Assembly (NCBI GenBank): GCA_014905825.1
Contig: JACGCN010000007.1
Location: 1-64,000 of the forward strand
Direction of reading: 5' to 3'
Source of the DNA: Lyophyllum atratum
Lineage: Eukaryota > Basidiomycota > Agaricomycetes > Agaricales > Lyophyllaceae
Length of the DNA: 64,000 bases
The position numbers were made by a program, and so were the translations under genes. The notes under the pieces are model-generated. The model searched no databases. It had not been told where the DNA came from and saw only the letters and a list, made by a program, of their open reading frames with translations. Position 1 is the stretch's first letter. Every line of letters starts with the position of its first letter. Shown piece by piece: positions 3,001 to 23,557 of this stretch.

Positions 3001-3316
3001 CGATGACGAGAGCCTGGCTCCTGTTGCAGATGCTGATGAAGCTCCGTTTTCAGCAGACCCTTTCGAGGATAGCAGTGATGTTCCGCTTGACGTAGTTCTG
3101 GACTTTGTCACCATGGATGGAACGGTTGTTGCTGATGGGTTTGGAACGAATGAGGATGGAAACATAATTAGGTCTGGAAATGGTGAGGACTCTGAAGCCG
3201 AGGCTGAGGACGTTAGTGCGGCTGCCGTGCCAGTCCCTGTTGCGCTAGGCCGTGGTAATCGGGTTAGAAAGACTCCCAAGCTCTTTGGTGGCTCGGGCTT
3301 ATGGGAGGGACACTGA
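1..3316 (+). CDS. Ulp1-like protease fused to DDE transposase (5' end outside window)
   Basis: This is a transposon-type gene whose start lies before base 1. The first about 130 visible residues match a C48/Ulp1 cysteine protease: catalytic His in HWVAIVID, Asp in FGDS, Cys in SHACGLFAHNALEH. An acidic linker and a highly charged coiled-coil stretch (about 950-1230) follow. The C-terminal half is a DDE_1-like (pogo/CENP-B class) transposase with candidate catalytic Asp residues in RVNTDQT, WLIDCWSVH and SAWQPLDVGF. Introns that keep the frame are 1234-1291, 1724-1773 and 2812-2863. The protein ends in an acidic tail and stops at 3316. Ulp1 domains are known in several eukaryotic DNA transposons (MULEs, Zisupton). 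Which family this fusion belongs to is open. No stop interrupts the spliced model, so the visible part may be functional. Confidence 0.75.
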
Positions 3317-3443
3317 CCTGTTGAAATGACTAACGGGATGTATATTCGTGTGGTGTGGTAGCGCCTGTGGCCGAAAAAATTGCTTTTTTGTCTTAATTTT
3401 CTAAGTGTTCACGGCCGACCGTGAGCCGTGACATGTACCGAAA

Positions 3444-3484
3444 GTGTTCAGTTCACGACCCTCCGTGATGCGTGACCTGAACAC
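3444..3484. repeat. Near-perfect palindrome at transposon/receptor junction
   Basis: The arms GTGTTCAGTTCACG (3444-3457) and CGTGACCTGAACAC (3471-3484) are inverted with one mismatch around a 13 base spacer. The stretch just before, 3403-3441, carries another GTGTTCA and a smaller CACGG/CCGTG hairpin. It lies 130 bases after the transposase stop and overlaps the 3' end of the truncated receptor reading frame. It could be the terminal repeat of the Ulp1-DDE element or a termination hairpin; the sequence does not decide which. Confidence 0.6.
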
Positions 3485-4851
3485 TCGGTCGAAACACTAC
3501 AGTATACCACCGAAAATATTCCTAATAAAAAGAATGGCATGTCCTTGCTGTATCGCAGTACAGCATCAACCTGGGGCTGAAGCATCCGGCGTAACCTCAC
3601 GCCTTCAAGATCATAGAGTGGCGGTATCGACTGTGCCACCAGATAGTGTGCGCATGCTTGGATGGGAAGGTCGTTCTCGGCCATTGTGCGCATCCAGGTG
3701 TGTACCAGTGGATGAATAGAGAACACCATATTCACGTCATCAAAGTCTATGAGTGAGTATGACCTCACGTCAGCCACCATTTCTTGAAAAAGATATGGGT
3801 CCCAGTTCCCGTCAGGCGCCAGGAAGTTACTGAGGAAATCCGCCAGTGGTACCAGCTCCTCCCATTCACTACTGGAACGTACTGCGGCCGAAGATGCCTC
3901 GAACATTTCCTCGGAAAGACCATCGTGATGCAGGAATGAGCAGATCCGCAAGAATGTGGCTGCTACTGGCTGCAGAAGGTCTACGCTCATTTGCCAAGTT
4001 GTATGCACTGTCCACCGGTAATCATCATGCTTCTGTCCGGGCTCTTTCTTCCAGAGCTCGACTCGGTTCCTCTTATATAGCTCGAGGTAGCTGCTGAGAT
4101 TCCCGGTCTTTGTAATGTACGCGCCGGCCTGTACAACTGCGAGAGGAAGACAACCTAGCTCCTTTACGCAAAATCGCGTCAATGATCCACTGTGAAGTGA
4201 TCGCAAATCGGTACTTACATTCACAATTGTGGTGGCTTGGTCGCGTGTATCGTAGGTGACATTATCATTTCGAGAGACCATGCCTAGGAGGAGATCTCTA
4301 GCCTCCTCCTCGTCCAAATGTGTGACCCTGAAGCCTGCGTTCGGCGCATGGATACATAATTCTGGGTTTCTCGTCGTAATGAGGATATTACCATGAGAAC
4401 AGGGCGGGAAAAATTGGGAAAGATCTACAGTGATGTCGTCCGCGTTATTGAATAGGATAAGCCATTCCTCGCATTCGTTGACAAGCCAGCGCAGCGCGTC
4501 GCCTGCTGATTTGCCAATCTTCTTGGCTAGAGAGATGTTTTCTAAATCTGTGTTGATGGTGTCGATAGTGCTTGCGTCGATGAAAAAGACCTGGGAGAAG
4601 CTGAGATCGATCATGACTCATGAGCTCGACGCACTTTCGAGAAGGGTTGAAGTTGACACACCATTGTGTCTCAGCGCATATTTCGACAAACCGGTATCCT
4701 GTCTGAGTCTTTCCTACTCCTCCGAGCCCGTACAGAACACAGACGTGCCGGTTACCAACAGCACTCAGAAAATAAGCCATCATGTCATTGAGAATATTCC
4801 GTCGACCAGTAAAGAGATGGGTTGGGGGTGGGCAGCGTTTATAATTGACCT
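3448..4851 (-). pseudogene. NB-ARC NLR-type receptor, 3' piece of a split gene
   Basis: This is a STAND-class NTPase of the fungal NLR type, expected to act as an intracellular sensor. Exon 4662-4851 opens with YKRCPPPTHLFTGRR, the usual lead-in of basidiomycete NB-ARC domains, and carries the P-loop GLGGVGKT. A 61 base intron (4601-4661) joins it to VFFIDAST, then LILFNNADD (Walker B-like), ILITTRNP (sensor 1), ELGCLPLAVVQAGAY (GxP) and a winged-helix region. A 57 base stretch at 4162-4218 with GTAAGT...AAAG ends is probably a retained-frame intron. The family normally continues into TPR repeats, but here the frame ends just after IHPLVHTW and RRMLQPQVDAVL. The 3' end is therefore truncated, next to the palindrome of the Ulp1-DDE element. 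The 5' exon is missing at this site; a candidate lies 18 kb away (22766-23084). Confidence 0.8.
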
Positions 4852-4898
4852 CTGCATAACTGATACATCAGAGCGGATATGTGGTACAGTCGATGTCA

Positions 4899-4970
4899 CT
4901 CAAACACCGTTGACATGTCACTTCAACACCATCAAGGGGGCACAAAAACACCTTGGACATAGCGATATAG
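4899..4970 (+). repeat. Left terminal inverted repeat of the KDZ/TET element
   Basis: The 72 bases align without gaps to the reverse complement of 22631-22702. Shared blocks include CACCATC, AAACACCTT and GACAT.GCGATAT.G. Each copy also contains a short internal direct repeat built on ACACC.TTGACATG. The copy lies 47 bases outside the splice acceptor of NLR exon 4662-4851. Confidence 0.7.
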
Positions 4971-5094
4971 CCTGTATACACCATAAACACAGTAACATTG
5001 TATGTATCTATATCGATGTATGTTATAGTAATCTCTTGCCATATCTTTCACGTTCTGATTTCTGACAGTCATTATGGCGTTCGTCCGCCAAACT

Positions 5095-5660
5095 TGTGTC
5101 AGTGGATAATATGGTGACATACATACTATAACATTCACCATATCGATTATCTGCCATATTTTTCTGGTAAGCCATTATGCCAGGATCCCGCCATATCATG
5201 CATTCTGGCATCTCTCCACCATACTAAAAATGATGCCAGACAGACGATTCGAACCCACCACCTACTACGTACATATAGCTTATGTGATGACTTAAACCTC
5301 TACACCACCACTCCTTGCGAAAGGATGCTCCAAGGTCATACCTGTCCACTACTTCATGGTCTACATATGGACACATGCATACCATATTTTCAATACGCCC
5401 CATTGCCACCATATCATGCGATATGGCGGTATCCATGCACATTTCCTTGCATGACACATATGGTGAGTATTTTTCCATAAGCTTCGGCTCTGAAAAAATG
5501 GATTACCTTGTCCATATGTCTTGGGCCCTTGAATATGGTCTTCATCCTCCATAACGACACATGCTCTTGCTCAAGTATGGTAGATATATTCCATCCTTAC
5601 TCACCTAAAATATAGGGCATTTCCATCCATACTCGAGTCAAATATAGTTTCATTTTCCCA
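5095..5660. repeat. Degenerate CCATAT-rich subterminal repeats (left)
   Basis: CCATAT, GCCATATT and ACCATAT motifs recur about every 20-60 bases, mixed with GCCAG and CATTATGCC variants. The vocabulary is that of the large satellite at 20.2-22.5 kb, but here the units are too diverged to show a fixed period. The stretch lies just inside the left terminal repeat and matches the position of the satellite at the right end. No gene is evident between 4971 and 5711. Confidence 0.55.
5225..5316 (-). other. tRNA-derived (SINE-like) sequence
   Basis: Read on the minus strand, TGGTGTAGAGG fits an RNA polymerase III box A and GGGTTCGAATC fits a box B about 50 bases downstream. The D-arm and T-arm are recognisable, but I cannot draw a convincing anticodon stem or full acceptor stem. 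It looks like a tRNA-derived promoter such as a SINE head or a decayed tRNA gene, not a working tRNA. Confidence 0.4.
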
Positions 5661-5711
5661 TAATTCCAAAGGCAAATTTGGTATGTATTCTAACTGTTCT
5701 GTATCTCTACA

Positions 5712-8700
5712 CTACCTGCTCTTGTAGGCCCTAATCCGCATCCGATTCCAAATGGAGATGAAAACCTTCGTATAGACAATGGCATGGGCCTGTGCCATGT
5801 AGCTGACTGATTTTCTGATTCTTTTGATTCCACCATTTCCGCACTCTGCTGCACTAGAATTTACCAACGAAAGCCGTGGGTCCACTGCCATATATGTCTC
5901 CAGAAATGCTGCCGGTGCACACTTTTTGTGGTCACTGGCATGGAATATGTCGACCCCATAGGTGCTATTGGCGAAGAAAGCTGGCTCACGAGTCAAGCAA
6001 TATGGGCCCAGGGCACATGCAAAATCATAGATGATGCGTTTTGGAGGCGCCTCCCATCGCGTATACATGGCAGAGAACACGTCATTCCGGCCTTCACCAT
6101 TAGGAATAAAATGGAAGCCGTAACACACACTGTGAGTGCACCAAGCTGCCATGATACCTCCAGATAAAGTCTTGACGCCATACTGAGCATAATATTTAGA
6201 ACATTTTGCACCACGGTTGTTGCTTGTTTCGGTTCGAACATCGTGCTTCAAGTTTGGATATATAGGGCGGTGGCGGATCTGAGGAAGGCTATAGCAACAG
6301 CCAGTCTGTTGGATTGATTCATTACTGATGTCAATCGGGTTATCCAAAGGGCCATACCTCTCGCCAATCGGCCTCCTCAATCACTGTAGTCTCCAAGCTG
6401 TCGGAAGGTGACTGTCCCACTACCAGGTCATAAACCTCCAAACCACGACAAAGCAGCCATCGACAAAGCTGAAGTACTGGGACAGGGTAGGCACTAGCAG
6501 CATGAAGCTTCAAAACTTGCAAAAGCATTGGACAAGTTATCATCTGAGAGGCGGTCACTGGGCTCGGGTTGGCGTTGAATAAGTACAGCTCGTCAAGTGC
6601 CTTTTTGTTTAACATCTGAAGCACTGACTCCTCTGCAGCGAGCTGTAAATTGCTGTTAATTTATGGTCGACAATAAGGTGCGAGGCATACCTGAATGAAT
6701 AATTTTTTATACACCTTTGGGGGCACTACGCCTGCCCTGACCGCCATTAACCCGAAGTTCTCATTGAACAGCACGCCGAGAGAGGCGTCAATGGCGATCA
6801 ACTCTCTTAGCACTTCTGGAATAGATGAAACGCGCTCCCGCTCTGCCTTGATAGCTGTTTCAGATTTCTTGGAACCTCCGCCCTCACCCTCGCCCTCTGA
6901 GTCGGAGTCATCAGCACTTCGCAAGGGAAGGCGGAATTCTCCTGCGCCCTTGACTATGATTCGCAATTTCCTTCGAAGCTTAGCATCAATCAAGACCTGC
7001 TGCTTTCCAATATAGCGATTTTTCCGGACCGGTGACTTGTCCTGGTCGGAAACAGTAGGTGGTCGTAGTGTGGGTAAGATGTGTTTTTTGTGGAACCCAA
7101 CTGTCACACCATCCCAAATGACGTCCTCTGGCGAAGGTCCACACTTTGGACAGCGCATGTCGTTACTGAAGTCCTGGAGATCTGCATAGGCAAACCACGC
7201 AGCTCGAAAAATCTGTTCTGAAACAAACGGCACAGATGAGCCACTTCCAGCGTATCTGCGGGTCATTACAGTCACCCAGGCGGTGAAGGGAGTTTCAGAT
7301 GAGGTATAAACGCTTGTATAGTCATCCAAGAGCTCGTGTGTAAAGAGAACGCGGTTGTTGAAATTAAAAATGCCCAGATTTCTAGGGTCTGGACCTATCA
7401 ACCGTCGGGTGCGACCAGGGCAAGTGGAGCAAGGTTGGACTTGAATGCAACCTGTAAAGGCTTCCGTCAACCCGTAGATAGCACATTGCCTCTCTAAAAT
7501 GGGCCGCTGAGGGTCATAGAAGGTTCGAGTCGCTTCACATGGACAAGCAGAGTCGGTGTCCAGAGATATCACCAGAGGGGCCTGCCTACAAGGCAGTGGT
7601 CTGACATAGTGAGATATGTCTGTATCGAGAGCAGCCCAGATTGGTGGCAAAACAGGCTGGTATGATATCGCTTTATTGTGCTGAGCCTTTTTTCTGACTA
7701 AAGGCAAACAGGCGTGTTAGTCCGGTTCAAGCGTCGTACTTGTATGATGCTCTTCTCACCTGCAGCGTGAGGAAGGGTAATATGAATTTCTGTATCGTCT
7801 TGCAGATCATTGCTGGAATCAAGCCTCATGATATTCCGAAGCATGGCCTGAGCGTCTGAAATATGGACGCAGCCATCGTGCATGTCCTTTGCACATCTCC
7901 ACGAGCCTCCGCCTCTATCATCACCCTCATGAATTACCACCGCCCGGCTCTTCACTGTTTCGCCCCTAGAGCTCACAGAGAAGTGATTTACAAACCTCTC
8001 ACCACCAATGGGTTGGCGAGAAAAAAGGACTGTGGGCACCGTGCTGTCTGAGTGGGCCGTCGGTATTGGTAGGTCTATGATTCATTAAGACCATCTTACC
8101 TGCCAGTGCTTGTTCGTTGCCTGGATACTCTTCCTCTCCCTGCTCTTCCATGAACAACGAATGGACACAAGAGCCGTTGACCCGACTCCCCTTGCAATAG
8201 CAAGCTACAGCGACTACCAGTCCAATTTTCGTTCGCTCAAGATGATACCAAGATCGCTGGAACACGTCTTGTTAAAGGTCTTAGTCCGAGTCATAGTGCT
8301 ATAATGTGCTCACTGTTCCTGATACATTCTTCGCATCCCAACCCTGCACAACGAATACATTTTCGTATATCTGTACCAGACCAACAGCCCCAGTACAAAC
8401 AAGGTCTGCATATGATGCGGAATCTGCACCGTAGTCATATTGGAGAGGGATGTTGCTATCCTGAGGCTGAGTTTCGGCACCCTCTGTAGGTGGAGTCATC
8501 ACTTCAGAATCACCGACAATCTCTTCTTGAGCAGGGCTTTCGGATTCGTTGAGAGGCTCGCTATCCATCTGATGTCAATTGCCAGTAAGGGTCAAGGCTA
8601 TTTACAAGAGCAGATAGACAGCTTTTCACCTCATGCTGCTGTACTTGCTTCGTCACCCTCCGCGACCCGCTTCTTGTGGATCCAACTCGTTGGCGCTTTC

Positions 8701-8845
8701 TGGGCGATGCTTGGCGGCTACCATCTGTCCAACTTGAAGGTCTGGCCTCTGATTTTGTTTGCAAAAGAGTAACACGGGGCTTTGGCGGCACTGGTACTGT
8801 GATTGTCCTGGGTATAGTTGGGGGTGCGGGCACAGTGAATTTCAT
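5712..8845 (-). CDS. KDZ-superfamily transposase with cysteine-cluster N-terminus
   Basis: This is the presumed enzyme moving the surrounding element. The start is the ATG at 8845 (MKFTVPAPP). Exons follow at about 8844-8570, 8568-8310 and onward, with short introns (for example before MDSEPLNES). Two SWIM-like Zn motifs occur, ACYCKGS...GSCVHS and SWRCAKDM..GCVHIS. A large cysteine-cluster module follows (ACPCEATRTF, CSTCPGRTRR, DMRCPKCG), like the CxC4-type clusters linked to KDZ transposases. The C-terminal part holds the RNase H-like core: GGIMAAWCTHSVCYGFH, IIYDFACALGPYC (catalytic Asp region), DIFHASDHKKC and NSSAAECGNGGIKRIRKS (catalytic Glu region). The stop is at 5712. By my splice model it is about 900 residues with no internal stop. 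It is transcribed away from the accessory gene at 8980 across 134 bases. The cluster subtype number is from memory; the KDZ assignment is firm. Confidence 0.85.
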
Positions 8846-8979
8846 GACGAAGCAGTGAAATGGATCTGGCTTTCTTTCACCGTAATGACGGCTCCATAGA
8901 AATATCGCGCTCTGCTGCCGTTTTGCAATTGCTTCCACTCAACCATCCTCTTGCCACATCACCGGCCTACTTGTGCATT
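8846..8979. promoter_or_regulatory. Candidate bidirectional promoter, KDZ transposase / accessory gene
   Basis: Only 134 bases separate the transposase start codon (minus strand, 8845) from the start of the divergent gene (plus strand, 8980). Both promoters must overlap here or reach into the neighbouring gene. No clear TATA box was identified. The layout suggests co-expression of the two proteins. Confidence 0.5.
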
Positions 8980-10251
8980 ATGGGTCGAAAAAGCAGCGGT
9001 AAAAACGCCTCTCCAAGATCGCCTGTATCCTCCCGAAAGATTCAATCCACTCCAAAAAAGCAAGCATTGCTTAACGCAACTAGAGCTCGCGGGCCACTCC
9101 ATTGCAACCGTTGTGAAGGTCGCCCACTTCTTAAAGAATGCAAGCATAGCGCAAGGGGGAAGAAGCTTGCCGCAGTAAGTCAGTTCTAATACACTGCCTA
9201 TGAAGCTGAGAACCTTTCTTGCAGTTAGAGGTTGAGCAGGCGCAGGCATCGGATATTCCAGGCTCCTCACCTACGCCGATGCCTCAGGCCTCAGAAACAC
9301 GCTCCCGCTGTGTATCAGACTCAGTAATTGATCCTCTGCTTAGAGGGCCAACTACACCTCAGCGGCCACCATCCACCGCATCCTTTGTCCAGCCACCAGC
9401 CATGGCCCCGCTCCGCATCTTTTCACTGTCCTCTCCAACAGGCCCTCAGTCACCCCTCCCACCGTCCTCGCCTATGGGCCCTTCCTCCCCTTGCCCCTCC
9501 TCCCCTATAGGTGGCTCATCGCCTTCACCTTTTATGTTGGAAAGTTCGACCACAAAGCCACGGAACAGGAAGCCTACACTCGCCAATCCAAAATATGGAT
9601 TTGTTGAGGGGTCTCAACGCGGTGGTAGAAGCTACGGTAAGCATTTACAATATTTGAGCACTTGCGTTGAACTTAAGCCATAAATCAGAGATCTTACGAA
9701 TGAAGGAGCTTCCTTTACCATCTCCAAGCCAGAGTAAAGCATCTGATCGGTTCACATATGTCATGAAGGACGTTATACAACGGGTGCGAATTTCAGGGGT
9801 CTATTGTACTGTGATCTGTACTCATACAGCTGTCTAGATTGAGCGACTGGGAGCGGAGACGGGTGCCTGGATTTTCATAGCTGGCCAGCATTCTCATGCG
9901 CTATCCCTGGACTCTTTTTTGTCCTATGCGTCTCCAGCACTTCGTCGGGACGCGCTTAAACACGTGGAGGATCTTCTCAATAAGTTTGGGGATACGGTGG
10001 ATGGGCTTCAAACACTGAGCAAGGACCGGGTTATCGAACTTACAGAAAACTGCAACAAAGCACAGAGGGAGAAGATTCTTGCTGAAACAGAGGCACGCGA
10101 GGCCCGGGAAGCCCTTGCAGCACAACAGGAGGAGATGGCCCTTCTTCAAAGCGTCTTAGATGATCTGGCGAGTGGCGCCATCCAATCCCATCAGATTCAA
10201 GGGATCACGTCACATAGCACAGCTCGGGCCCAGAATTCTGCCGGTAATTAA
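8980..10251 (+). CDS. Accessory protein: CxxC motif, Pro/Ser-rich linker, coiled coil
   Basis: Function unknown. The start ATG at 8980 gives MGRKSSGKNASPRSP, a basic Ser/Lys-rich N-terminus, then a small cysteine motif (LHCNRCEGRPLLKECKH). An intron after AARGKK-type sequence (GTAAGTCAG...TTGCAG, 9175-9223) leads to a long Pro/Ser-rich linker (9224-9640). Further short introns fall near 9640-9690 and 9781-9837. The C-terminal part is helical and Glu/Gln/Ala-rich (about 9960-10150), very likely a coiled coil. It is divergent from the transposase and converges on the dioxygenase gene with 73 bases between the stop codons, as expected of an element-encoded partner. The cysteine motif may bind zinc or nucleic acid; this is inference. 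Confidence 0.65.
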
Positions 10252-10324
10252 ACCTGTACCTCTGCCACATGTATATAGGGAAATCACAAGCCATTTTTGT
10301 TGACGTAATAGACTACTACGAAGA

Positions 10325-12123
10325 CTACTTTCTACCCCCCTTTCCGAACACCATCTCCCTGTCATGCTCCAACTCACCCATCTTTGAAAAAAGATTAATC
10401 CCAGCCGTCCAGCGCTCATCAACTCCCCCATCAATCCCAGCTCTCTCCTCCTTACCACCTTTCTCGCTCAATATTGATTTTGCAGTCCTAAAGTTATACG
10501 CCACCCAGCGAAAGAGGCCCCCAGCCGCATATTGAGTAAATGAAAGGCGGCGCTCACCAGGCCCAACTGGGATGTTGCCATGTTCTACAGCACCAGATGG
10601 GATGATGACCATGGAACCAGGAGGGAACTCGATGATAAGTTTTAAAGAATAGAGAACAATATGACCTCCTGTCTTCGGATCGTAAGGGCCCATTGCGGTG
10701 ATAAGACATCCACCGCATGCGAAGTTACCGAAGTCCGTGTGGCGAACGGTACAGGTGTTTGGCCCACAGTTGAAAGTGCAGGCGGGCATGATGGAGTTGT
10801 GGAAGTTGTGCTCGAGGTTGGGGTGGTGGCGGTACAGTTCGTCCAACTCCGTGGCGTAGTACTGATACAATTTCGGATAAAATGCGGCGTAGGCACCTAT
10901 CAAGAACTCCATGAGTTTCCATTGATTACAGGTGACAACAGCCTTAGCTTACTTGATTGGAACCCTGCAATGCGTCGTATGTTTTTATTTTGAAGGAGGC
11001 GACGAATAAGGCGGCCACGAGCGGGTTTGTGATGTAGGTTTTGAGGCTCCTAGCAGAACTGTGAGCAAGTACACCATATAGATGCATATCACATACCTTC
11101 TGACCTCCTCCAATGGAGGTCCCTGTAGCGAGAGCGACAAACTCTCCCCGTCGATGCTTTACATCCTTCGCATCGATGTGCTCGTCCTTCAGACCCTCAT
11201 CCCTGGCGGCCTCCATGGCGGTAACGGCATTCTGGATGACAGTGTCCCACTTGGGATCCTCAGGACGACCCGCGAGGGTGACAATTCCCCGACGTTGAGA
11301 GTCGTAGATGACCTTTGGGGTTCTGCGGAATATAAATCAAGATGAGGAGGATGGTTAGATAAAACAAGGTAAAGTGACGTACATTCCATCCCATGCAATA
11401 TAATGAAAGCCCAAGGATATAAGCTCCTCAACAGTGGGGCACAGCGAGATCAAGGTGGTGTCTGGCGCGGTACGCTTGCCAATCCAGGACCCACCCTTTG
11501 TCCGAGGGAAAGACATGGCGTTGATGTCAAAGAGTATGACCGGCTTGTCATCATCAGGGAGGGGAGGAGCAGAGGCCAAGGCGGATGGGCGGCTGGCGGC
11601 AGTAGGTCGGGAGTAGGGGGTCTGAGCATGAAAGGCAGCAATTCGTGAAGACGACCGTCGCTCCCTCTTTGCAGCCTTCCTATCAGCCATGCGCTGCTCA
11701 GCGGGCGACAAGCGAGCGGTCGTCGACTGCACTCCAGGATGGGTGATGGATAGAATAGGAACATACGGGCTGCCATCAATTGATGGCCCAGTGGTGAGCT
11801 GCGCGCCCTCCGCGTCGTCGCTCCTGGTCAAGTCCTCGAAGCTGCGGCGATGGGCAGCACTTTCAAGCAAAGCATTGAAATCTTCAGGGCTCTCCCATGC
11901 GGAGGAGGGGTGGAAGCCAGGGAAGCGGACGGACTTGCAATCGTACGGCGCAAATAGGGCTCCGGGCTGAGCCTGTTAAGTATTTAGTAAAGGGCCCTAT
12001 AGCGCTAAAGCAGCATTGACGAACCTTGGTGCCCAGCTGCAGCAGCAGTGTATCCGGAACGTCACAGCCTCGGAGTGTAAAGTCTGACGAGGAGAAGACA
12101 GTTCCTGAGCGTGTCTGCAACAT
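10325..12123 (-). CDS. TET/JBP-type 2-oxoglutarate/Fe(II) dioxygenase
   Basis: This is predicted to oxidise a methylated base (5-methylcytosine or a related base) in DNA, or a related substrate, using Fe(II) and 2-oxoglutarate. The start at 12123 (MLQTRSGTVF) is followed by short introns near 11975-12022, 11320-11380, 11050-11100 and 10886-10960. The catalytic double-stranded beta-helix is in the last exon: the iron ligands are VRHTDFGN (HxD) and the distal His of SGAVEHGN, and GERRLSFTQY gives the Arg that would bind the 2-oxoglutarate carboxylate. Conserved flanks include MPACTFNCGPNTC and GGHIVLYSLKLIIEFPPGS. The N-terminal half holds a basic KAAKRERRSSSR stretch and a DKPVILFDINAM motif. 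Expansion of such genes beside KDZ transposons is known in Agaricomycetes. All iron ligands are present, so activity is plausible. Substrate cannot be told from sequence. Confidence 0.82.
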
Positions 12124-12257
12124 GCAAGCGAGTAAGTGCTGGAATGAGAATGGTAGCAGCGGGCACGCACACCTTACTCATAGCTGTGAGCGCGGGCAGG
12201 GGTTATATCACCGTTGTCCTGTGGGCGGAGCATGGTCAGCATCAGTCATGAGCAGCG

Positions 12258-12440
12258 GCCGTAGAGCCTATGGTCAGGCCCGGCATGCAGAGGTGAGAAG
12301 GGGGGTGGACGAGGCTACACTTCGAGTGAAGCGCTGCATGCCGTAGGGCCTATGGTAAGGCCCGGCACACAGGGACGGAATAGGCGGCACCCTCTATGCA
12401 TCGCCTCGCATGCCGTAGGGCCTATGGTAAGACCCGACAC
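12258..12440. repeat. Three direct repeats upstream of the dioxygenase
   Basis: A unit close to GCCGTAGGGCCTATGGTAAG continuing into GCCCGGCA occurs near 12260, 12340 and 12410, with a spacing of about 70-85 bases and few mismatches. The copies lie 135-320 bases upstream of the dioxygenase start, so they sit in its probable promoter. They could be regulatory sites or a small tandem expansion. Confidence 0.6.
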
Positions 12441-12694
12441 GGAGGGAGGTGGACTCACAAGGGGGGAAGGGAGGGATATTCTGGAATCCTGTGGCCATAA
12501 TTATTCTTATAGCCAGCACGCCCACCAATATTTACAGCGATGACATACCATAAATTTCAGTGCAAAAATAAGGAGCCGGTGCGATAGGGGAATCCAGCGA
12601 CGGATCAGCCAGCTACGCGACACGAGCCCTATACCCAGCTCAGCCCCTGACGCGAGATCTGTGGAAAAACCAGAGCGGTCGCTTGATCAGGGGT

Positions 12695-12856
12695 GATACC
12701 AATAGGTGGCATGTGGAGCCTACAGGTGCATTGGAAATTCAAAAAAAAAAAAGAGGTGTGGCGCCTAGCACCCCTCATTTTTAGCGCTCGGCTGGGAAGG
12801 CAGCCGCCTGATACCAATAGATGGCATGTGGAGCCTACGGGTGCATTGGAAATTCA
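12695..12856. repeat. 47 base direct repeat around an A-tract
   Basis: Copies at 12695-12741 and 12810-12856 differ at only two or three positions and share GCATGTGGAGCCTAC and GGTGCATTGGAAATTCA. The first copy runs directly into an uninterrupted run of 12 A. It looks like the footprint of a small retrotransposed or duplicated fragment between the dioxygenase and the CxxC gene. Confidence 0.7.
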
Positions 12857-12953
12857 GAAACCCGAGGAAGCGGGAAGCCATGGACTTACATATGTCGTTG
12901 ATCTTGGTCGAGGGGTAAATTCTTTGGTAGACATAAAAATAGAGAATTTCAAA

Positions 12954-13525
12954 TTAATCTACGCGTTGCGGGCCGTCCAGCGGGAACGGCACGAATCTCT
13001 GTTTCTGGGCCCCCCTGTATCCATCGACTCCCCAATCTTCATCATTGGGCGGTACGACTACAATGAATGCCTTCTGCAAACACACCGAGCAGATCCACGT
13101 GGAGCAGAGGATGTTGTTGATCACCTCGACAAAAGGTATGAGGAACTTGGTGGGATCGCGGCCGCAGTAGAGGTTGACCACCGCACGGTCGCCGCCAACG
13201 TGGTGGATGATGTTTCCAACGGGTGTCACGCGGAGCATGAGGCGGGGGTCGCGGATTCGATAGTCGCGTAGAGTGTGAGCATACCGCTTTGCACCGCAAA
13301 ACAAGCAGCGGGCGAAGCGCGCGAGTCGGGCTAATCGAAGTCAGTAAAAGCGTTGTGACAGATCCCTGATAGTATGGACTTACTATCCGAGTCATCTGAA
13401 TCCGAAGAATCCGAAGAAGAATATTCTCCCTCGGAGTCAGAGTCGGTGGTGTCTGGAGATGGCAGCGCGTCGTCGCCACTGTGCTGGACGAGTGGCGAGT
13501 TGGAGTTGGGGTGGGTGGAGGCCAT
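12954..13525 (-). CDS. Small acidic/CxxC zinc-binding-like protein
   Basis: Function unknown. The start at 13525 (MASTHPNSNSPL) gives a strongly acidic Asp/Ser-rich N-terminus. One intron (about 13332-13380, GTAAGT...TTAG) leads to a C-terminal domain with two cysteine pairs, RCLFCGAKRYAH and WICSVCLQKAF, separated by about 80 residues. The middle is hydrophobic (RLMLRVTPVGNIIHHVGG). The paired CxxC motifs suggest one zinc site. It ends at 12954 (GPQRVD). It is on the same strand as the dioxygenase and separated from it by 830 bases of repeats, inside the proposed element, so it may be cargo acting with the transposase or dioxygenase. Confidence 0.55.
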
Positions 13526-13805
13526 GTTGGTCGGCTTGACATCCGGCCGTCGCTTATATCTAGAACAGCTATCAAGCCAATCATCAGGAAAACCATGTGC
13601 TGATATAGAAAAAAAACTTACGATCGATCGATCGTCGGAGCATCCAGCAGCCCCACTACCCATTTACCCGGGTGGGCTGTTCGGGACGTCGCATGTACGC
13701 TGGGCGAACCCAGATATACAGGGGATGGAGAAGACTGCAGGTCTGTGCAACACTTTCCTGCAGTCACCCCTACGGTTGAGTGGCTCGGTGCAACACGTCG
13801 CACAC

Positions 13806-14534
13806 TCAAAGGGGTTTGGGGAGGAGGCTGCGACCCACCCCAGTAGCCTTCGGTACCCAAAGCCCCGCAATCAGAAGGAGTAGGTACCAGCGGCGGCGAC
13901 AGCTATGGTGTAGCGATGGCGGGAGGGGTGAGGGAAGTGGGACGGGGGGCCGCACAAACCCTGGGAAAGCCCAGAAGTATGCTCGCATGACGGCGATTGG
14001 TTGCGATCGTCCACAATGAAGAGGTGGTGGCGACGGCTGCGGGTAGGGGGAAGTGGGTGCTTGGGAGCGCGATAACTCGGGCTCACAGGCGCCGGACGGC
14101 CTAGGGTGTGCGTGGCTGGTTAGAGAGGGGCAATTGTGGCAGGGGGTATTCTGACGCACCTGAGCAGCTCTCCCCCAGCTGGGGTCTGCCGTCTTGTCTC
14201 CTGCCCCTCGCACTTTCCATTGGCCTTCGATCCCGGAGCGCTGCATAAGCGGATAGTGTTGACACTTGTTGATGAAACAGAATCTGTAAGATAACACCTA
14301 TAACACAAAATGCCAGATGATTGGTAATGAACTATGAGTGAAAAGGCAATGTAGAGTAGGTGGGACACTTACCTGAGGCTCTTGAGAGCCTTTTGGGGGC
14401 TGGGTGAAGGGGCAGGGCTGCGCGGTGGTGGCAGAAAGCAATGAAGATGGCCGCATTGCTGACATACCGGGGTTTGCCGGGACATTCCCACGCCGCCTCA
14501 GCGTCGAAACGGACAAGTGTTGAGGCTCATTCAC
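13806..14534 (-). CDS. Possible short Pro/Ser-rich protein, uncertain
   Basis: A minus-strand model starts at 14534 (MNEPQHLSVSTLRRRG). It has a donor after GSQEPQ (GTAAGT near 14373) and could continue after an acceptor near 14245 into a Pro/Ser-rich frame holding one CHNC motif. The composition is biased and nothing matches a family I know. It may be a real cargo gene or chance reading frame in GC-rich DNA. Confidence 0.2.
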
Positions 14535-14734
14535 TGCGTCTTAAGCCGTTTAAATCCTTGGAGTATGTATCTAACATATGTAGGAAGTATATACCATGAA
14601 ATTACACGGAGGTAATGCCTGAATTTGTTTGGGACAAAAAGGTGGGAGACTAACGAAGTGAATTCAAAGAATGAGGTCACTCACCATGGCTGGGATCATC
14701 AAAATTGAGATCGAGGTCTCGGCAAATTAGAAAA

Positions 14735-14825
14735 TTAAAGTTGCTGATGCGTGCGGTTGCTGATATTCGCGTGTTTCCAACTTAAGGTTGCTGATGCGTT
14801 GCTGATATTCGCGTGCTTCCAGTTT
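14735..14825. repeat. Short direct repeats
   Basis: TTGCTGATATTCGCGTG plus TTCCA occurs near 14758 and again near 14800, and the preceding GTTGCTGATGCG is also doubled. It lies 180-270 bases upstream of the start of the gene at 15005. The stretch 14535-15004 otherwise shows no gene. Confidence 0.5.
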
Positions 14826-15004
14826 CCGACTTAGCATATGGGCGTGGCGTACAAGGAAATGGGCTTCAAATTAGTGGGAAATCACGGTACACTACCACGA
14901 GAATAGCACCAAGTCGGAAACATAAGATTACCACCTTCCACCACCTTTTTCGCAAGCCGGTTGCACAACCTCAAACTTAGAAGTGGGAAACTCAAAGTCC
15001 AGAT

Positions 15005-16104
15005 ATGACTACAGATAACACCAAGGCTACACTGAAGAAAGGAAAAGACGGCTTGACAAAATATCAGCGCTATTATCAGAAGTATGTATCATATTCTCAT
15101 TATACATATTTAATTAACTCAACATTCACAGGCATCCCGAGGTGAAAGAAAAGAACCGGGAGCGACAGCGACGCCGTCGCGAGCTAAAAACACAGAAGAA
15201 TGCTCCACCTTCCAGTACCGAGCCTAGCATACAGGTTTCTGAATCGACCATGCTCCCGGCCCCCACAGCAGTCATATCCGTAACAGAGCCTATGTCCCCC
15301 CTTCCGGACTCGTCTGAAGAGTCCTCCAGCGACTCCTCCATTTATGAACCCTCGACACAAGATATTGCTGTCGAACATGGGCCACACACTACAGACGCTC
15401 TTGAGTTTGACATGGAGACCGATAATCCCCCCCGTTCCCTCCCGTCGGACTTCCACCGCACCTCGTTCCGGAACAAGGATGCACTACTGGGGAACATTAT
15501 CAACGAGCTGGTGGACTACGATGGAAAGAAACCTTACCCGTCGGAATACCTTGAGCTTGAACTCCTTCGGAAATTACATACCGCAGTCTTGAACTGGGCT
15601 AAAGGATGGGGAGGCGTCACGTACTGGAGCATCGGGCTGGATAAGTCCTTCAACCTTGCAGTGGAGGAGCGCCGTGTGGAAGTATGGCGAGCACAACTGC
15701 ATAATCACGCTGCCCGAGGACGCCGAATGCTCAGCCGACTACATTTCATGGATGGAGACTTACCGCTGGAGATGTGGAAAATACGAGAGTTGTGGAGAAT
15801 TCAGATCGAATTGGTGGAGATCCTCGTCAAAGGCATCACCATTCTCGAACTCAAAAGCTCGATACTCCCAGGCCTCTGCACAGTGACATACACTGAATCA
15901 GACAGCGCTGTCGAAACCGATGGCGGTGAAACTGATAGTAATGAAGGGGAGGGCGACATTGAGGACAATGTTGAGGACGAGAACAACGACGAGGACGAGA
16001 AGAACGACGGCGGTGATGAACCTCAGGGCGGCTATGTGTCAGATGACGAGTTCCATCACGAGTGGTACTGTATGGGTATGCACGAGGGACCATGTGTATA
16101 CTAG
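15005..16104 (+). CDS. Uncharacterised protein, basic N-terminus and acidic C-terminus
   Basis: Function unknown. The start ATG at 15005 gives MTTDNTKATLKKGKDG. A 50 base intron (15082-15131) joins QRYYQ to HPEVKEKNRERQRRRR. The N-terminus is therefore highly basic, of the kind seen in bZIP-like or small nucleic-acid-binding proteins, but no leucine zipper follows. The middle (about 15480-15870) is a predicted globular helical domain with WAKGWGGVTYWSIGLDKSF and MWKIRELWRIQIELVEILVKG. The C-terminus is very acidic (Asp/Glu/Asn repeats) and ends at 16104 in a His/Cys/Tyr-rich tail. It lies inside the proposed element on the plus strand, before a similar chromatin-like gene. Cargo or fungus-specific family; no name is justified. 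Confidence 0.6.
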
Positions 16105-16496
16105 CTTCAGTACGACTTAGAATTCAACACGATGATGAGGGGAACGACATTTATTGCTGTGCGCAGCAGGCTGGCGTCTATTGCTGTGTACAGCAGGCTA
16201 TGGTCTATTCGGTGCAGGCATGGATTTGCCAGATTTGATCATATGATTGATGAATTTTTAGTGTTTCCATATCTCATCGATCAGAAAGCTGCAACCGGTG
16301 CCTGGAGATTCTGTAGATCTCTATCCGAGATTATTTCGAATGTCGTGAATTACAATCTAGATCTGTTCAGAACTCTATCATCAAATTGTTATAGAAGCAG
16401 CAAAGGCCCAATTTCGAGTGGTAAAAGGCATGATCTGTCTACCGACGGAAGCATAGGAGAAGTAGGATCGATTATGGGCATTGACAAAGGATTGGG

Positions 16497-19115
16497 ATGG
16501 ACGGCAATATTTCCAACCTCAGTTCAGTACATAGGCATGGTAAGTGAAGGTCCAGATTAGGGTGTTATCTGTACGATGTGCATACTTCTTCCAATTAAAT
16601 CATACAACTTACAAGATCGGGACAAGGTGTGGTGACGCGGTACACCGCATGTGCAGATTTGGTGGGATAATTGTTCTGATCGCAAGGTTGAGATCTCGGC
16701 GCATGACGATCCAGACGGAATATACTATTCCACTGCCATATTTTGTAAACATTCCTGGCCGTCACATTTCAACAAGAAACCCATGGAGAGTATGTATATA
16801 TTCACTGCTGAAGATTATTTCCATACTCATGTGTGTATAGAAATTACAGAGTTAAAGAGCAAGATTAGCTTACTGGAAGTCCAGTTGGCCGTGGCGCAAG
16901 CGAAATGTGAAGAGGTTATGGCAAAACAGCCAAAGAAAATGTCGTCTGCTGCAAAAGGTATGGCAAGTAGCTACTTTGTGTGGCATAGTCACTGAATATG
17001 CCCTCAGGCTTGCGTACGAAAGCTACAAATACTGTCAATAGGGCCCAAGGTGCGCTAGATAGTGCAAGGAAGGAGCTTGACGAGCTTTTGAAGGAAGATC
17101 AAGCAAGTGCTGGCATGAAGCGCAGCGGTCCGAGAGGTGGAGACCGGCTAGCAAAGAAAGGAAGGGCAGATACAGATGCAGATGATAGCGACTTGACATC
17201 GCTTGACTCTATGGAGGATATGAACATTAATCCTGGTGCCGATGTAGATGATGATAAGACAGGAGATAAGACGGGAGGGGAGAGGGCTGAGGAGGCAGAG
17301 GATAAAGGGCAGCAGGTCGGACAGAATGTGGAAGGGGGAAATTTGCGAGTGGGTTCAGCTCAGAGCACCATAGCCGCCGCCGAGGGAAATAGTCGACATG
17401 TCCTGACAGGTGTTCCGATCACCAGTGAAGGTGGGGATAAGGAGGTCCAGGTCGGACAGAGCATAGTGTTGGTGGGAAAGGCATTGGTGGTGGGTGGTGG
17501 AGAGGATGAGGGGGTGCCGGTCGGACAGAATACTGAAGTGGGAGGTGGTGGAGAGGATGAGGGGGTGCCGGTCGGACAGAATACTGAAGTGGGAGGTGGT
17601 GGAGAGGATGAGGGGGTGCCGGTCGGACAGAATACTGAAGCGGGAAATCTGTCAGTCAGTGCGGTCCAGAGCGTCATAGCCACCACCCAGCCGCCTTCAG
17701 AAGACGTAGAGGTGAAGCAAAGCACAGAGGCTGAAGGTGGGAACCATCTTGCGGGTCAAAAGGATAGCCTGGCTATAGAGCGGTTGTTATCGACCAAAGG
17801 TCTGATTCAAATGGAAACTATTTCCGAGGTACCACAGGGAAAAGGGGGGAAAGACTCACCGATGGAAATATCATCAGACAACAGCTCTGAAGAGGGGGTT
17901 TCGGAGGTGAAGGGAAAGGGAAAGGCACCAGTATCTGAGCCTAAGAAAAGTGGGTCCTGCTGGCTTTCCGTCTTGTTCAACGGTTGACATGATTCTGTCA
18001 GGCGTAAAAGTCAAACACAAAGCACAACGGTCGAAGTCTAAGAAATGTAAGGCTCTGGTATACAAGTTGCCGTAACTGGTTACCATAACATCTATTCTAG
18101 CAGCTAAAAGTTCGTCGGAAGAAGATGATGGTGATGACGAAGAAGATATGGCTGCAAAGGGAAAGGGGAAGGGCAGCGCACGGGCACCTAAAGCTGGATC
18201 AAGTAAGTTATTCATGAAATGCTGGCGGAGCATTGATTTACTGAATATTTTTAGAAGGTGACACAGTGGCATACGAGGATTGGGATGATGACAAGCGGGA
18301 AAAGATAGTTGGTGAGCCGCCTTGAGATTTGTTTATATCTTGTTCTGAGATTGTATATAGCCAAGGCCCGAGCTGCTTTCCGCGCCTTTTTGGACAATGG
18401 AGACGAGGTTCCGGCAGGAATCAAGAGAAAGATACGAGAAAACCAGGAACTGCTGCCTGAAGCAGCCACTATATCTCGTGCACTTGCATTGCATATCCTC
18501 ACCTCCACCCATGGCAACATTCAGTGTCTGTACCATGGTAAAGCCAAGGTCGAGGGTAAACTGGGTGGATACATTGATGGCTTCCTGATTTCTGGTACGC
18601 CTGGCCGCAGGCGAGTGAAGTCCAAAAAAAATCCCAACCCTGGGAATCCAGAGAGCGGCCATATTCACTGTGGATGCGAAGAGGAGAAGGCACTTCTGGA
18701 CTTCATTCTGTGGAAGACCCTCCAGGTTTCATACAAGCCAGTCGGAAACAAGAAGATGCCACGTGAGGGTATGGGGTCGCAGCTATTTGAACCGCGAGGT
18801 CGAATGTTTGTCATCGAGGCATTGCAGAAGTATGCGGCCTGGTCGTTGGATTTTCTTTATACTGGGCAAGGTGATGCGGATGCTAGTGAAGATGCGGAGT
18901 TTCCAGACTTTTGTGGACCGGAGCATCAGAGGAAAGTACTTCTAGCATCGATGGAGGGCCTTTTTGGACGGGTTCAGATGCTGAATGTGCTTACTGGCAA
19001 TTTGATGCTAGGGGTGGCACAGCCATTGGCTCAGCAGGAAGGCACCTCTGGACAGGGAGAGCAGGGAAATGGACAGCTTGCTATTGACCCAGGTTTGATT
19101 GATGCATCATCCTAG
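16497..19115 (+). CDS. Uncharacterised multi-exon protein with coiled coil and repeats
   Basis: Function unknown. The likely start is the ATG at 16497 (MDGNISNLSS), but the second splice junction is uncertain. Exon 16660-16790 encodes IWWDNCSDRKVEISAHDD. After the intron 16792-16844 comes a coiled coil (ITELKSKISLLEVQLAVAQAK). Later exons carry KR-rich and acidic disordered segments, a threefold 17-residue repeat, KGKGK-type basic runs, and a conserved-looking C-terminal domain (18360-19000) with ISRALALHILTSTHGNIQ, YHGKAKVEGKLGGYIDGF and CEEEKALLDFILWKTLQ. Introns near 17965-17999, 18045-18100, 18206-18254 and 18311-18360 have good GT-AG ends. It is inside the proposed element. The charge pattern suggests a chromatin or nuclear protein; this is inference only. 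Confidence 0.55.
17487..17641 (+). repeat. Threefold 51 base in-frame tandem repeat
   Basis: The unit encodes GGGEDEGVPVGQNTEVG and occurs three times in nearly identical form. A diverged relative (VQVGQSIV) lies just upstream. The period is a multiple of three and keeps the coding frame, unlike the satellite at 20-22 kb. Confidence 0.85.
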
Positions 19116-19404
19116 TTGTTCGCTGTCGTAGTTGTAGAGTTTCAAATGAGACTAACTGAAGAACGCGTCATGCGTAAGGACACGTGTATTTGAGAATATG
19201 GTTCTGTGGTGCCAAAATCGTATTGTATGGCTGCAATGTCTGAGGCATTGGCCATGCTAAGTTATCGAATGTCGTTGTCATTTTCGTGCTTGTCGTCTGG
19301 CTCACTCTCCCAGCGCATATCAGGTAAAACTGGGACGAGACACTCAGCTGCTCTCATGTCAAAAGTCTAAACCGAACCCTCAACTAAAACCAATACATTG
19401 TCTG

Positions 19405-19600
19405 CCCGCACAAATTGGTGCAAAACAAAAGCATCATGACGGGCTTGAACTCGATGCCTCCGAGAAGGAGTGGCTTACACATGCACTCAAACCAGCTAAG
19501 CCACATAACCTTACAGAGACAGGGGTACATAACACCCTATGATAGCCCGAGATTCGAACTTGAAAAACTTGAATCATCGATTCGGACATACATGTGAGCC
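19405..19600 (-). other. tRNA-derived (SINE-like) sequence, possibly dimeric
   Basis: On the minus strand TGGCTTAGCTGG fits box A and GAGTTCAAGCCC fits box B, with a CTCC/GGAG pair between them that could be an anticodon stem. A second box-B-like CAAGTTCGAATCTCGGGC lies about 60 bases upstream, as in a dimeric tRNA-derived element. No complete cloverleaf could be drawn. The flanks 19116-19404 and 19601-20150 hold no recognisable gene. Confidence 0.4.
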
Positions 19601-20169
19601 TAATTACTCGCAGCCCATGAACAGATTTTACTTGCTCTTGCTTAATCACATACTGCAGTAAATCATGGTCATTGCTTATAGTAGTCAATAGTGAATACTT
19701 GGGCTTCAAACATTGGCGGTGCTTCCGTCACCATGACTCTGCGAGTAGTATACGGCTGTTGGGGATGGGCAACGTCATATAGCCGTACAATAGTACCCTT
19801 GCTTTCCACACGGTAACCTTGTATAACAAATAACACATCAAACATAGTAAAGACAATAGGGTAAGTGAGACTTACAGTGTGTCGGACGCAAGCCTTGAAT
19901 CAGCAGGCGCCATTCGTCAAGGGCACGATTGAAGTAGATATCTGGCATATCTGGTCATAGCTATCATAAGTTTGCCATTGGTGAAGACTATATATTTCTC
20001 TTACCAGAGGTGAAAGCTTGGAGGAAATACTTTGGTCTTAAAACCTGGTTGGGTGTGGTGGGAGACAAAGAAGGGTATCACGACTCCTAGGGTGTGTCCG
20101 AAGCCAACTTAGTCTAAATGGATCTAAACTGAGAAAGAACTCAACCGACATCAGTCCCTTAATACTCGA

Positions 20170-22540
20170 TGATCATCACCAGAGGAAATATGCCAGGGAG
20201 AATTCCCAATATAGAAAAAATGGTGAATATACACCTTTGAGAGCACGGCCTGAAGGTACCATATTTGCCCGCGAAATAAAATATGGTGAACATACACCAG
20301 AATTCTCTGTATACCAAAGTATGGCAGAAACCCACCATAATACAAGATATGGCGTGAAAGTACCATATTTGCCCGCGAGATAAAGTATGGCGAACATACA
20401 CCAGAATTCTCCATGTACTAAAATATGGCAGAAACCCACCATAATACAAGGATATGGCGTGAAAGTACCATATTTGCCCGCGAGATAAAATATGGTGAAC
20501 ATACACCAGAATCCTCCGTGTACTAAAATATGGCAGAAACCCACCATAATACAAGGTATGGCGTGAAGGTACCATATTTGCTCGCAAGATAAAATATGGT
20601 GAGCATACACCAGAATTCTCCGTGTACTAAAATATGGCAGAAACCTACCAGATATGGCGTGAAGGTACCATATTTGCCCGCGAGATAAAATGTGGTGAGC
20701 ATACACCAGAATTCTCTGTGTACTAAAATATGGCAGAAACCCACCATGATACAAGGATATGGCGTGAAAGTACCATATTTGCGCGCGAGATAAAATATGG
20801 TGAACATACACCAGAATTCTCCGTGTACTAAAGTATGGCAGAAACCCACCATAATACAAGGTATGGCGTGAAGGTACCATATTTGCTCGTGAGATAAAAT
20901 ATGGTGAGCATACACCAGAATTCTCCGTGTACTAAAATACGGCAGAAACCTACCAGATATGGCGTGAAGGTACCATATTTGCCCGCGAGATAAAATATGG
21001 TGAGCATACACCAGAATTCTCCGTGTACTAAAATATGGCAGAAACCCACCATGATACAAGGATATGGCGTGAAAGTACCATATTTGCGCGCGAGATAAAA
21101 TATGGTGAACATATACCAGAATTCTCCGTGTACTAAAATATGGCAGAAACCCACCATAATACAAGGTATGGCGTGAAGGTACCATATTTGCTCGCGAGAT
21201 AAAATATGGTGAGCATACACCAGAATTCTCCGTGTACTAAAATATGGCAGAAACCTACCAGATATGGCGTGAAGGTACCATATTTGCCCGCGAGATAAAA
21301 TATGGTGAGCATACACCAGAATTCTCCGTGTACTAAAATATGGCAGAAACCCACCATAATACAAGATATGGCGTGAAGGTACCATATTTGCCCGCGAGAT
21401 AAAATATGGTGAACATACACCAGAATTCTCCGTGTACTAAAATATAGCTGTATCTCACCATAATACAGAAGCTGCATGATATGCGTTACCCAGATAAAAT
21501 ATGGTGAAAATACACCAGACATCTCCGTGTACCAAATTCTGGCAGAAGCTCACCATATTTGCCGGCGAGACAAAATATGGTGAACATACACCAGAATTCT
21601 CCGTGTACTAAAATATGGCAGAAACCCACCATAATACAAGGATATGGCGTGAAAGTACCATATTTGCGTGCGAGATAAAATATGGTGAACATACACCAGA
21701 ATTCTCCGTGTACTAAAGTATGGCAGAAACCCACCATAATACAAGGTATGGCGTGAAGGTACCATATTTGCTCGCGAGATAAAATATGGTGAGCATACAC
21801 CAGAATTCTCCGTGTACTAAAATATGGCAGAAACCTACCAGATATGGCGTGAAGGTACCATATTTGCCCGCGAGATAAAATATGGTGAGCATACACCAGA
21901 ATTCTCCGTGTACTAAAGTATGGCAGAAACCCACCATAATACAAGGTATGGCGTGAAGGTACCATATTTGCTCGCGAGATAAAATATGGTGAACATACAC
22001 CAGAATTCTCCGTGTACTAAAATATGGCAGTATCTCACCATAATACAGAAGCTGCATGATATGTGTTACCCAGATAAAATATGGTGAAAATACACCAGAC
22101 ATCTCCGTGTACCAAATTATGGCAGAAGCTCACCATATTTGCCCGCGAGACAAGATATGGTGAACATACACCAGAATTCTCCATGTACTAAAATATGGCA
22201 GAAACCCACCATAGTACAAGATATGGCGTGAAAGTACCATATTTGCTTGCGAGATAAAATATGGTGAGCATACACCAGAATTCTCCGTGTACTAAAGTAT
22301 GGCAGAAACCCACCATAATACAAGGTATGGCGTGAAGGTACCATATTTGCCAGTAAAACTCAATATGGCGAATATATGCCAGAAGCCCTGCAGAGAGACA
22401 TATGGTCGGATCTCACCGTAATGCACAATATGGCATGAGGGTGCCATGACTGCCAGGTAGAACAAATATGGTCGATATATGCCAGAAGTCCTGCAGGGGA
22501 AGATATGGCAGAACCTTGCCAAATTGTGCAGTCAGCTCCA
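20170..22540. repeat. CCATAT satellite with 305 base higher-order unit
   Basis: About 20 tandem monomers start at CT-CCGTGTACTAAAATATGG. Successive starts fall at about 20409, 20514, 20618, 20714, 20819, 20923, 21019, 21124, 21228, 21324 and 21428, giving lengths 105-104-96 repeated three times (305 bases). From 21428 a second pattern with 95 and 76 base monomers appears and partly repeats at 22008. Each monomer contains an ACCATATTT / AAATATGGT inverted pair around the variable CCCGCGAGAT core. Long reading frames on the minus strand exist only because the monomers lack stops; 305 is not a multiple of three and the frame shifts every unit. Edges at 22290-22540 are degenerate. Confidence 0.9.
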
Positions 22541-22630
22541 GGGATAGAAAAATACAGAGAGAAATATATAGAATTTGAATGCTGTAATCGACATTGCTAG
22601 AGCTACACACAGTCTTACGGTATATAGATA

Positions 22631-22702
22631 CCATATCGCCATGTCAAAGGTGTTTCGGCGCTCCGTCGATGGTGCTTTGATGGCAGGTCAAAGGTGTCTC
22701 AC
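22631..22702 (-). repeat. Right terminal inverted repeat of the KDZ/TET element
   Basis: This is the reverse-complement counterpart of 4899-4970, of equal length, with about three of four bases matching. It separates the satellite from NLR exon 22766-23084 and lies 63 bases inside the intron that begins at the exon's GTATGC donor. Confidence 0.7.
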
Positions 22703-22765
22703 GGACGGGCTCTTGCTTTCCTACCCCCATCAGAGGCAGCGCGGTCAGAGAGATCCGAGGCATAC

Positions 22766-23084
22766 CTGTCGAATCCCGATTCATTGCAGCACCAGCTGGT
22801 GCAGAACCGTAATTCACGATGTAGTCGCCGCCGACAGCAATGAACGTGCAATCATGTTGACTGAAGTTATGCGCGAGAGGGAAAAAATTAATCGTTTCAG
22901 ACGTGGGGCCACTGTTCGCAGAAACTGCGCCTGAAGCGAGCGACTGGCTAGTGATCACGGGCACTGGGGAGCTGTCGGGTGAGTTTGCAGCTTCGATCAC
23001 TATGCTCCCGTTTGTTCGCGAGTGAGGATCGTGTGCCGCTTCTGGCGCATTCGCACCCATACACTGAGCCATATCTATATCCAT
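22766..23084 (-). pseudogene. Candidate first exon of the split NLR gene
   Basis: The ATG at 23084 begins MDIDMAQCMGANAPEA. The 106 codons are Ser/Ala/Pro-rich and end with NFSQHDCTFIAVGGDYIVNYG, similar to the short motif that precedes NB-ARC or NACHT domains in many basidiomycete receptors. A GTATGC donor at 22765 leaves phase 1. The acceptor of exon 4662-4851 needs exactly phase 1 (the shared codon becomes GAG). The inverted repeat of the KDZ/TET element lies 63 bases into the intron. I therefore read the two pieces as one gene split by the insertion. Alternatively this is a separate small gene. Confidence 0.55.
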
Positions 23085-23557
23085 AGTAACGGATGTTGAG
23101 TAACTGGTTCAAAGAGCCTTGCAGATCGTTTGCTAGTTTGTAGGGTTAGAACCAAGACAGGCGTTCCCATTGTACATAGGCTTTGCTTGACGGATACGTG
23201 CCTGTTCCTGGCATGGCAGTGTTGAGGGGGTGGCGATCGATAACGAACTCCGCCTGTCTGATCGTTGTACAAGTACAGTAAATTATAACTGGTTGGAGTG
23301 AGTCGTCAAGCCGCTCGTAAATGGATGAAGAATGTGTAACATCGGACCCGGTTTTGAACAATTGTCGTCGCGTGAGGAGAGAAGAAAAGATAAGCAAAGC
23401 AAAGGCTGCACGCATTCCTTACTCTGTGACCCTGAGCATCCGATCGCACAACACCCGCATCACTTGCATTGATACCTGATGATGGTCATGTCAATGTCAA
23501 TCCTCTGCTCATCGGCTCAATCCGCTGGTCGTCCGGGGTGAGCACTCGTAGGTCTAC

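Follow-up and report, generated by a model that had tools for sequence, protein, structure and literature searches.

The window analysed here comprises the initial 64 kb of contig C119 from Lyophyllum atratum and contains a complete mobile element of 17,854 bp at positions 4874..22727, probably a Zisupton-like member of the KDZ group of CxC4 type. From left to right it carries a transposase gene, g10, a TET-like dioxygenase gene, an imported block holding g15, and g18. Related copies were sought in one genome, that of L. atratum (64.76 Mb, 151 contigs), and the gene models were predicted from the DNA sequence.

The element is a bounded mobile unit

The limits of the element follow from an insert-free site on contig C2, where C2:56672-58045 corresponds to window 3500-4873 and C2:58038-60807 to window 22728-25500, identity being 99.7% along the first stretch (1374 bases) and 99.9% along the 1508 bases compared in the second. 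These two flank matches overlap by the 8 bases CATCAGAG, single at the C2 site and present at both ends of the insert in the window (4866..4873 and 22728..22735), so that the element spans 4874-22727 and is flanked by an 8-bp target-site duplication (TSD). The first-pass annotation had proposed such an element at 4899..22702 and a search for its empty site; the element is borne out, with both limits having been set 25 bp too far inward. C2 could represent the second allele of this locus here, or else a copy duplicated very recently.

The left terminal 100 bp (4874..4973, plus strand) begin 5'-CGGATATGTGG, carry repeated ACACC...TGACATG-like motifs and align with the ends of related copies on C65 and C64. 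The right terminal 100 bp (22628..22727, minus strand) finish in CTACCCC-3' and match the left end in inverted orientation, 63 of the 100 outer bases being identical. Inverted 72-base ends had been noticed at first pass, and these are indeed 52/72 identical without gaps; local alignment of the inverted ends scores 36, whereas neither 2000 shuffles nor 2000 random window pairs scored above 19. The CCATAT repeats described just inside both ends are equally clear. The left subterminal region (4974..5700) holds 12 of them (16.5/kb; maximum 4 in 500 shuffles), while on the right a tandem array of 104/305-bp units (20247..22350) is full of CACCATAT, the wider stretch 20150-22627 having 67 CCATAT (27/kb), compared with 0.5-0.7/kb in the interior and outside. 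The locus therefore has the form of a KDZ element, bounded, with terminal inverted repeats (TIRs) and a TSD. When bare ends lacking the genes were looked for in the genome, none was seen: window 4895-5250 matched itself alone, in nucleotide matching that skips very common words.

At the C2 site the target falls inside a GT...AG intron of 52 bases; with this intron taken out, the gene stays in frame. The insertion had been placed in an intron of an NLR gene; the intron stands, whereas the gene's matches to AAA, NB-ARC and DUF7779 are weak and all below the Pfam cut-offs. A repeat at window 3300-3505, with close copies elsewhere, reaches 3499, where the C2 match starts; it seems to truncate the 3' part of this NB-ARC-like gene, and C2 continues differently. 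The observed/expected CpG ratio of the element, 0.76, is lower than that of its left (0.93) and right (1.03) flanks, which fits methylation but is confounded by composition.

A CxC4-type transposase and its sister copies

The transposase (5712..8568, minus strand) is an open 862-residue spliced model from our own script, with proposed exons at 8314-8568, 8100-8256, 7740-8047, 6691-7680, 6358-6642 and 5712-6305, and it is collinear with 13 homologues. It matches Pfam CxC4 at 6.8e-47 (159 bits) and has a further, SWIM-like cysteine cluster placed by eye. D430, D759 and E819, invariant in 14 aligned rows, form a candidate catalytic triad, giving the combination of DDE transposase and associated cysteine cluster that marks KDZ proteins. 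The CxC4/SWIM type is presumably that of Zisupton. Genome-wide, the KDZ Pfam model gave 109 matches, exon fragments included; canonical KDZ genes are numerous in L. atratum.

The CxC4 part of the transposase had 18 matches in the genome, fragments included, and the main ones fall into five lineages: A, the window; B, on C65, C119:1.09 Mb, C72 and C130:1.69 Mb; C, on C1 and C70; D, on C64 and C63:0.89 Mb; and E, on C63:0.15 Mb, C46 and C130:0.27 Mb. Both ends were read for six copies, the window and five others: C65 (20,002 bp, target duplication CATCTACA), C119:1.09 Mb (19,224 bp, CGAAGTTC), C72 (20,873 bp, GAGGGCTC), C64 (29,868 bp, GGCTTTCC) and C130:1.69 Mb (25,008 bp, CGAGACCAA). The TSD is 8 bp in five of the six and 8-9 bp in the last named, owing to a C-run slip. 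Further full copies with matching ends and different target duplications, for which the first-pass annotation proposed a search, are thus present, and together with the empty site and TSD they confirm its view of one bounded mobile unit holding both transposase and TET-like gene. The copies share the repeated ACACC...TGACATG-like motifs and termini of the form CRGATA...CTACCCC, with CCATAT or CACCATA arrays inside the ends whose repeat units differ among the copies read.

Lineage B moved recently, since its copies are closely alike and the flanks of the C65 copy find no match beside the others. Around the transposase and TET, C65, C119 and C72 are 99.6-100% identical; in the region of g18 with its array the figure is 98.2-98.8%. 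The C130 copy is 94.7-94.8% identical to C65 and C119 around the transposase. The transposase tree does not order A, B, C and D, and so speaks neither for nor against a TET swap between A and B.

By eye, the C65 copy (L081) seems to break an exon of a kinase-like gene, insert-free relatives of which lie at C69:688971-690640 and, 3 kb away, at C65:825258-826809. In the flank of this copy lies a repeat (L080:1-435) with many relatives; like a non-autonomous relative, its part 159-435 is also found at four places some 2 kb away from canonical KDZ genes.

Genes conserved beside the transposase

Two further genes, g10 and g18, have homologues in lineages A-E. The g10 product (8980..10251, plus strand; 371 residues) is a basic protein with a C2CH knuckle and a probable coiled coil. 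Its homologues lie at most about 10 kb from the transposase and are weak in E; the knuckle is present in the window model and at loci of lineages C, D and E, and was not seen in the lineage B loci examined, which may not span that exon. The g18 product (16783..19115, plus strand; its ATG at 16783 set by eye with P0085 and P0086 as guides) has a coiled-coil N-terminus, a low-complexity middle and a conserved C-terminal C..H...C.C domain, the C, H, C and C of which are invariant in 8 rows. Its AlphaFold model has a pLDDT (per-residue confidence) of 45, and a wider homologue search over 950 candidates returned two matches, both from L. atratum. No defensible gene was found at 12.2-14.6 kb of the window; of the 'four or so' further genes first proposed, three (g10, g15 and g18) are supported.

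Among lineages A-D, the proportion of nonsynonymous differences (pN) is 0.17-0.37 for the transposase, TET, g18 and g10, while that of synonymous differences (pS) is 0.70-0.85, which is saturated. For TET the comparison also took in two canonical-KDZ copies; neither g15 nor the row for lineage E, at pN 0.38 and pS 0.81, enters the quoted range. Because pN is low while synonymous sites are saturated, this codon comparison shows the four genes to be under constraint. In Tephrocybe rancida, homologues of the transposase (DXG01_000546) and of the TET (DXG01_000548) are each listed on a 12,343-base contig, which suggests the same arrangement there.

A probable TET fold and a distinct pocket in the dioxygenase

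The TET-like gene (10325..12181, minus strand) starts by eye at ATGAGTAAG (12173-12181). The NCBI model, P0051, of 527 residues, differs from our own spliced model; P0051 was used for the structure work, and our model was the query for the search for protein homologues. The reading frame is open with HxD...H...R, the HxD at 390-392 and the second His at 443. The active site is conserved across 32-33 of 33 aligned rows (HxD in 32). The solved structures nearest to that of P0051 are TETs, with the 2-oxoglutarate oxygenase fold and its HxD...H metal site, and the modelled protein very probably has a TET fold and an intact active site.

The positions of Gly331 and Asp337 of CcTet, the nearest solved enzyme, are occupied by Asn and Cys in 33/33 rows with letters there (placed by eye, ungapped), and again in 19/19 aligned rows made up of the window and 18 of 29 other genome loci. 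AG-type TETs have Asp337 with Gly or Ser at 331, and PE-type TETs have HxE for HxD. With Asn and Cys at the first two positions and HxD in 32/33 rows, the window TET differs from both, and membership of either type was rejected. According to PMC11040006, Asn1387 of hTet2 contacts 5-methylcytosine (5mC) and blocks N6-methyladenine (6mA). Because its pocket has an Asn of this hTet2 type and lacks the CcTet Gly331/Asp337 pair, the window enzyme is predicted to act on 5mC with little or no 6mA activity; judged by these residues, oxidation of 5mC seems somewhat the better expectation.

Two TET types and exchange between KDZ elements

The window TET had 68 matches in the genome, 59 of which were tabulated, the other nine being second fragments of tabulated places. 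Eight of the tabulated places have a CxC4 transposase no more than 12 kb away, 25 have a canonical KDZ gene nearby, one has both and 25 have neither, on a table using 62 of the 109 KDZ matches, with neighbouring fragments and three lineage E places left out. A tree of 45 rows has a clade with support 98/94 that mixes CxC4-type and canonical-KDZ rows; in this tree the place near both counts as canonical, and L035, which lies 10 kb from a KDZ gene, counts as near neither. A single origin of the CxC4-type TETs, with 8 rows held together, was rejected by the approximately unbiased (AU) test (p 2.7e-7) but not once five Lyophyllaceae rows were added (p 0.09). Since the outcome shifts with added rows, we claim neither a direction nor a number of transfers for the TET.

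The Tet_JBP model gave 18 matches in the genome, 14 of them over the cut-off. Lineage E accounts for three that are situated between its g18 and g10, and a fourth is flanked by homologues of g10 and g18 on C108; these four places are absent from the window-TET matches. Of these four, the lineage E TET on C46 had its residues read; it resembles CcTet (E 1e-16) and, by eye, has Gly and Asp at the two pocket positions. Two TET types thus occupy two positions, which is most simply explained by independent capture. We tentatively propose that in this genome CxC4-type KDZ elements took up TETs at least twice, at different positions and with opposite pockets (Asn/Cys, predicted to act on 5mC only; CcTet-like Gly/Asp, predicted to act on 5mC and 6mA), while swapping modules with canonical KDZ elements. 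If so, the elements would be selected for removal of base marks, with the enzyme matched to the host's modification, and the Asn/Cys enzymes would belong to neither AG nor PE but to a further TET type.

The block holding g15 (14636..16172, plus strand; exons 15005-15081 and 15132-16104 from our own script) is 78% identical at the DNA level to a canonical KDZ element of contig C2, homology stopping at 14636 and 16172. The g15 protein is 81% identical to homologues at four places (C67, C2, C141 and C97), which accompany another TET and a canonical KDZ gene, and was not matched in other CxC4 elements (E 0.001); a broken g15 lies on C57, about 17 kb from a CxC4 fragment. Nonsynonymous (dN) and synonymous (dS) divergence are 0.10 and 0.40 over 299 codons. 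Because the homology is bounded and dS is 0.40, against saturation in the core genes, g15 was exchanged between the two kinds of KDZ element, and we infer that the window element received it from a canonical KDZ element. Kojima 2025 (PMC12730594) reports no transfer between superfamilies for AG-type TETs; the mixed TET clade does not contradict this, as the present TET type differs from AG.

Elsewhere, window 37279-37966 is a perfect tandem duplication of a 342-bp unit. Positions 5230-5320 and 19430-19520 resemble tRNA genes on visual inspection; run with the bacterial code, ARAGORN reported no tRNA, and an Rfam search of the window found nothing of use.

Proposed mechanism and alternatives

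The whole is best explained, with a probability of about 80%, as an autonomous KDZ transposon carrying a TET-like enzyme that may oxidise 5mC and counter silencing. The DDE transposase would recognise the repeated ACACC...TGACATG end motifs and the inner CCATAT arrays, perhaps assisted by g10 and g18, and the 17.9 kb moved as one unit, leaving 8-bp target duplications. The carried enzyme would most likely counter silencing by oxidising 5mC in the element or in DNA close to it; that the element gains an anti-silencing benefit has, in our view, about even odds.

Several observations weigh against this account. The Pfam Tet_JBP score is 24 bits for our own spliced model and 22.4 for the single exon, below the cut-off of 34.9, so the intact 2-oxoglutarate dioxygenase of the first reading is upheld by its frame, residues and fold but not by this score. 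The same holds for the intact transposase, with an open, collinear model but 18.3 bits against the KDZ catalytic family PF18758 (cut-off 26.6), a family absent from the matches of the full model; in favour of a KDZ transposase, homologue P0018 has PF18758 together with PF18717. The window TET is 16% identical to CcTet, and PDB sequence searches with it and its profiles gave no link to that enzyme. Lineage C (C1/C70) has a different gene order with g18 placed otherwise, and lineage D has the transposase, g10 and g18 but no TET of either type by the searches run.

The absence of a detected TET from lineage D means that the gene may be dispensable for movement and favours an alternative in which the element is mobile and the TET-like gene passive cargo without benefit, as do the fungal transposon TETs described as passively transferred in PMC12730594. 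We regard this as unlikely, because amino acid changes are restrained while synonymous sites are saturated, the active site is kept in nearly every row, and lineage E carries a different TET type at another position. An enzyme that acts chiefly on 6mA, thymine or RNA in place of 5mC, or that is directed at the host, would suit the low identity to CcTet and the Cys in place of Asp337, which CcTet requires for 5mC; we doubt this reading, given an Asn at the 331 position corresponding to the 5mC-contacting, 6mA-blocking Asn1387 of hTet2. That host genes merely lie between two unrelated transposon ends, as the lack of g15 in other CxC4 elements and the short matches at 12.1-14.6 kb (against loci that are parts of sister copies) might hint, is ruled out by the empty site with its TSD and by the same core genes and ends in the sister copies.

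Comparison with known TET-bearing and KDZ elements

An association of TET/JBP genes with KDZ transposons was reportedly recognised by Iyer in 2014. The general idea of a mobile unit with TET and transposase is already in print: Kojima 2025 (PMC12730594) reports Kyakuja and Zisupton elements that are complete and carry a TET, and proposes that they escape silencing. In the literature portions consulted on L. atratum or on KDZ elements with cargo and transposase, we found no account of the present element. As described there, TET-bearing Kyakuja is likewise an Agaricomycete KDZ element with a TET/JBP gene, but has 7-bp TSDs, CA..TG termini, no TIRs and an AG-type TET with Asp337, whereas the window element has an 8-bp TSD, CRGATA...CTACCCC ends, imperfect TIRs and an Asn/Cys TET. 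Membership of Kyakuja was therefore rejected on TSD length, termini and TIR score (36 against 19). TET-bearing Zisupton shares the 8-bp TSD and is the probable group of the CxC4 type; its Agaricus bisporus representatives apparently have a PE-type (HxE) TET, in contrast to HxD here. KDZ1 of Cryptococcus (PMC12810828), a KDZ element with TIRs and an 8-bp TSD that has been seen to move, is about 11 kb long, of CxC1 type and with 241-bp TIRs, and no TET appears in the part of its description available. CcTet of Coprinopsis cinerea (PDB 7vpn, 7w5p, 8jkk) has the same fold and HxD...H metal site as the window TET, from which it differs in the Gly331/Asp337 pair. The present element is set apart by its different TET subtype, its conserved helper-candidate genes and the swapped-in g15 block. 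The near-identical empty site in the same genome would allow the methylation effect of a transposon-borne TET to be compared with its unoccupied counterpart, and the two TET types in one kind of element offer a direct test of enzymes matched to different DNA marks.
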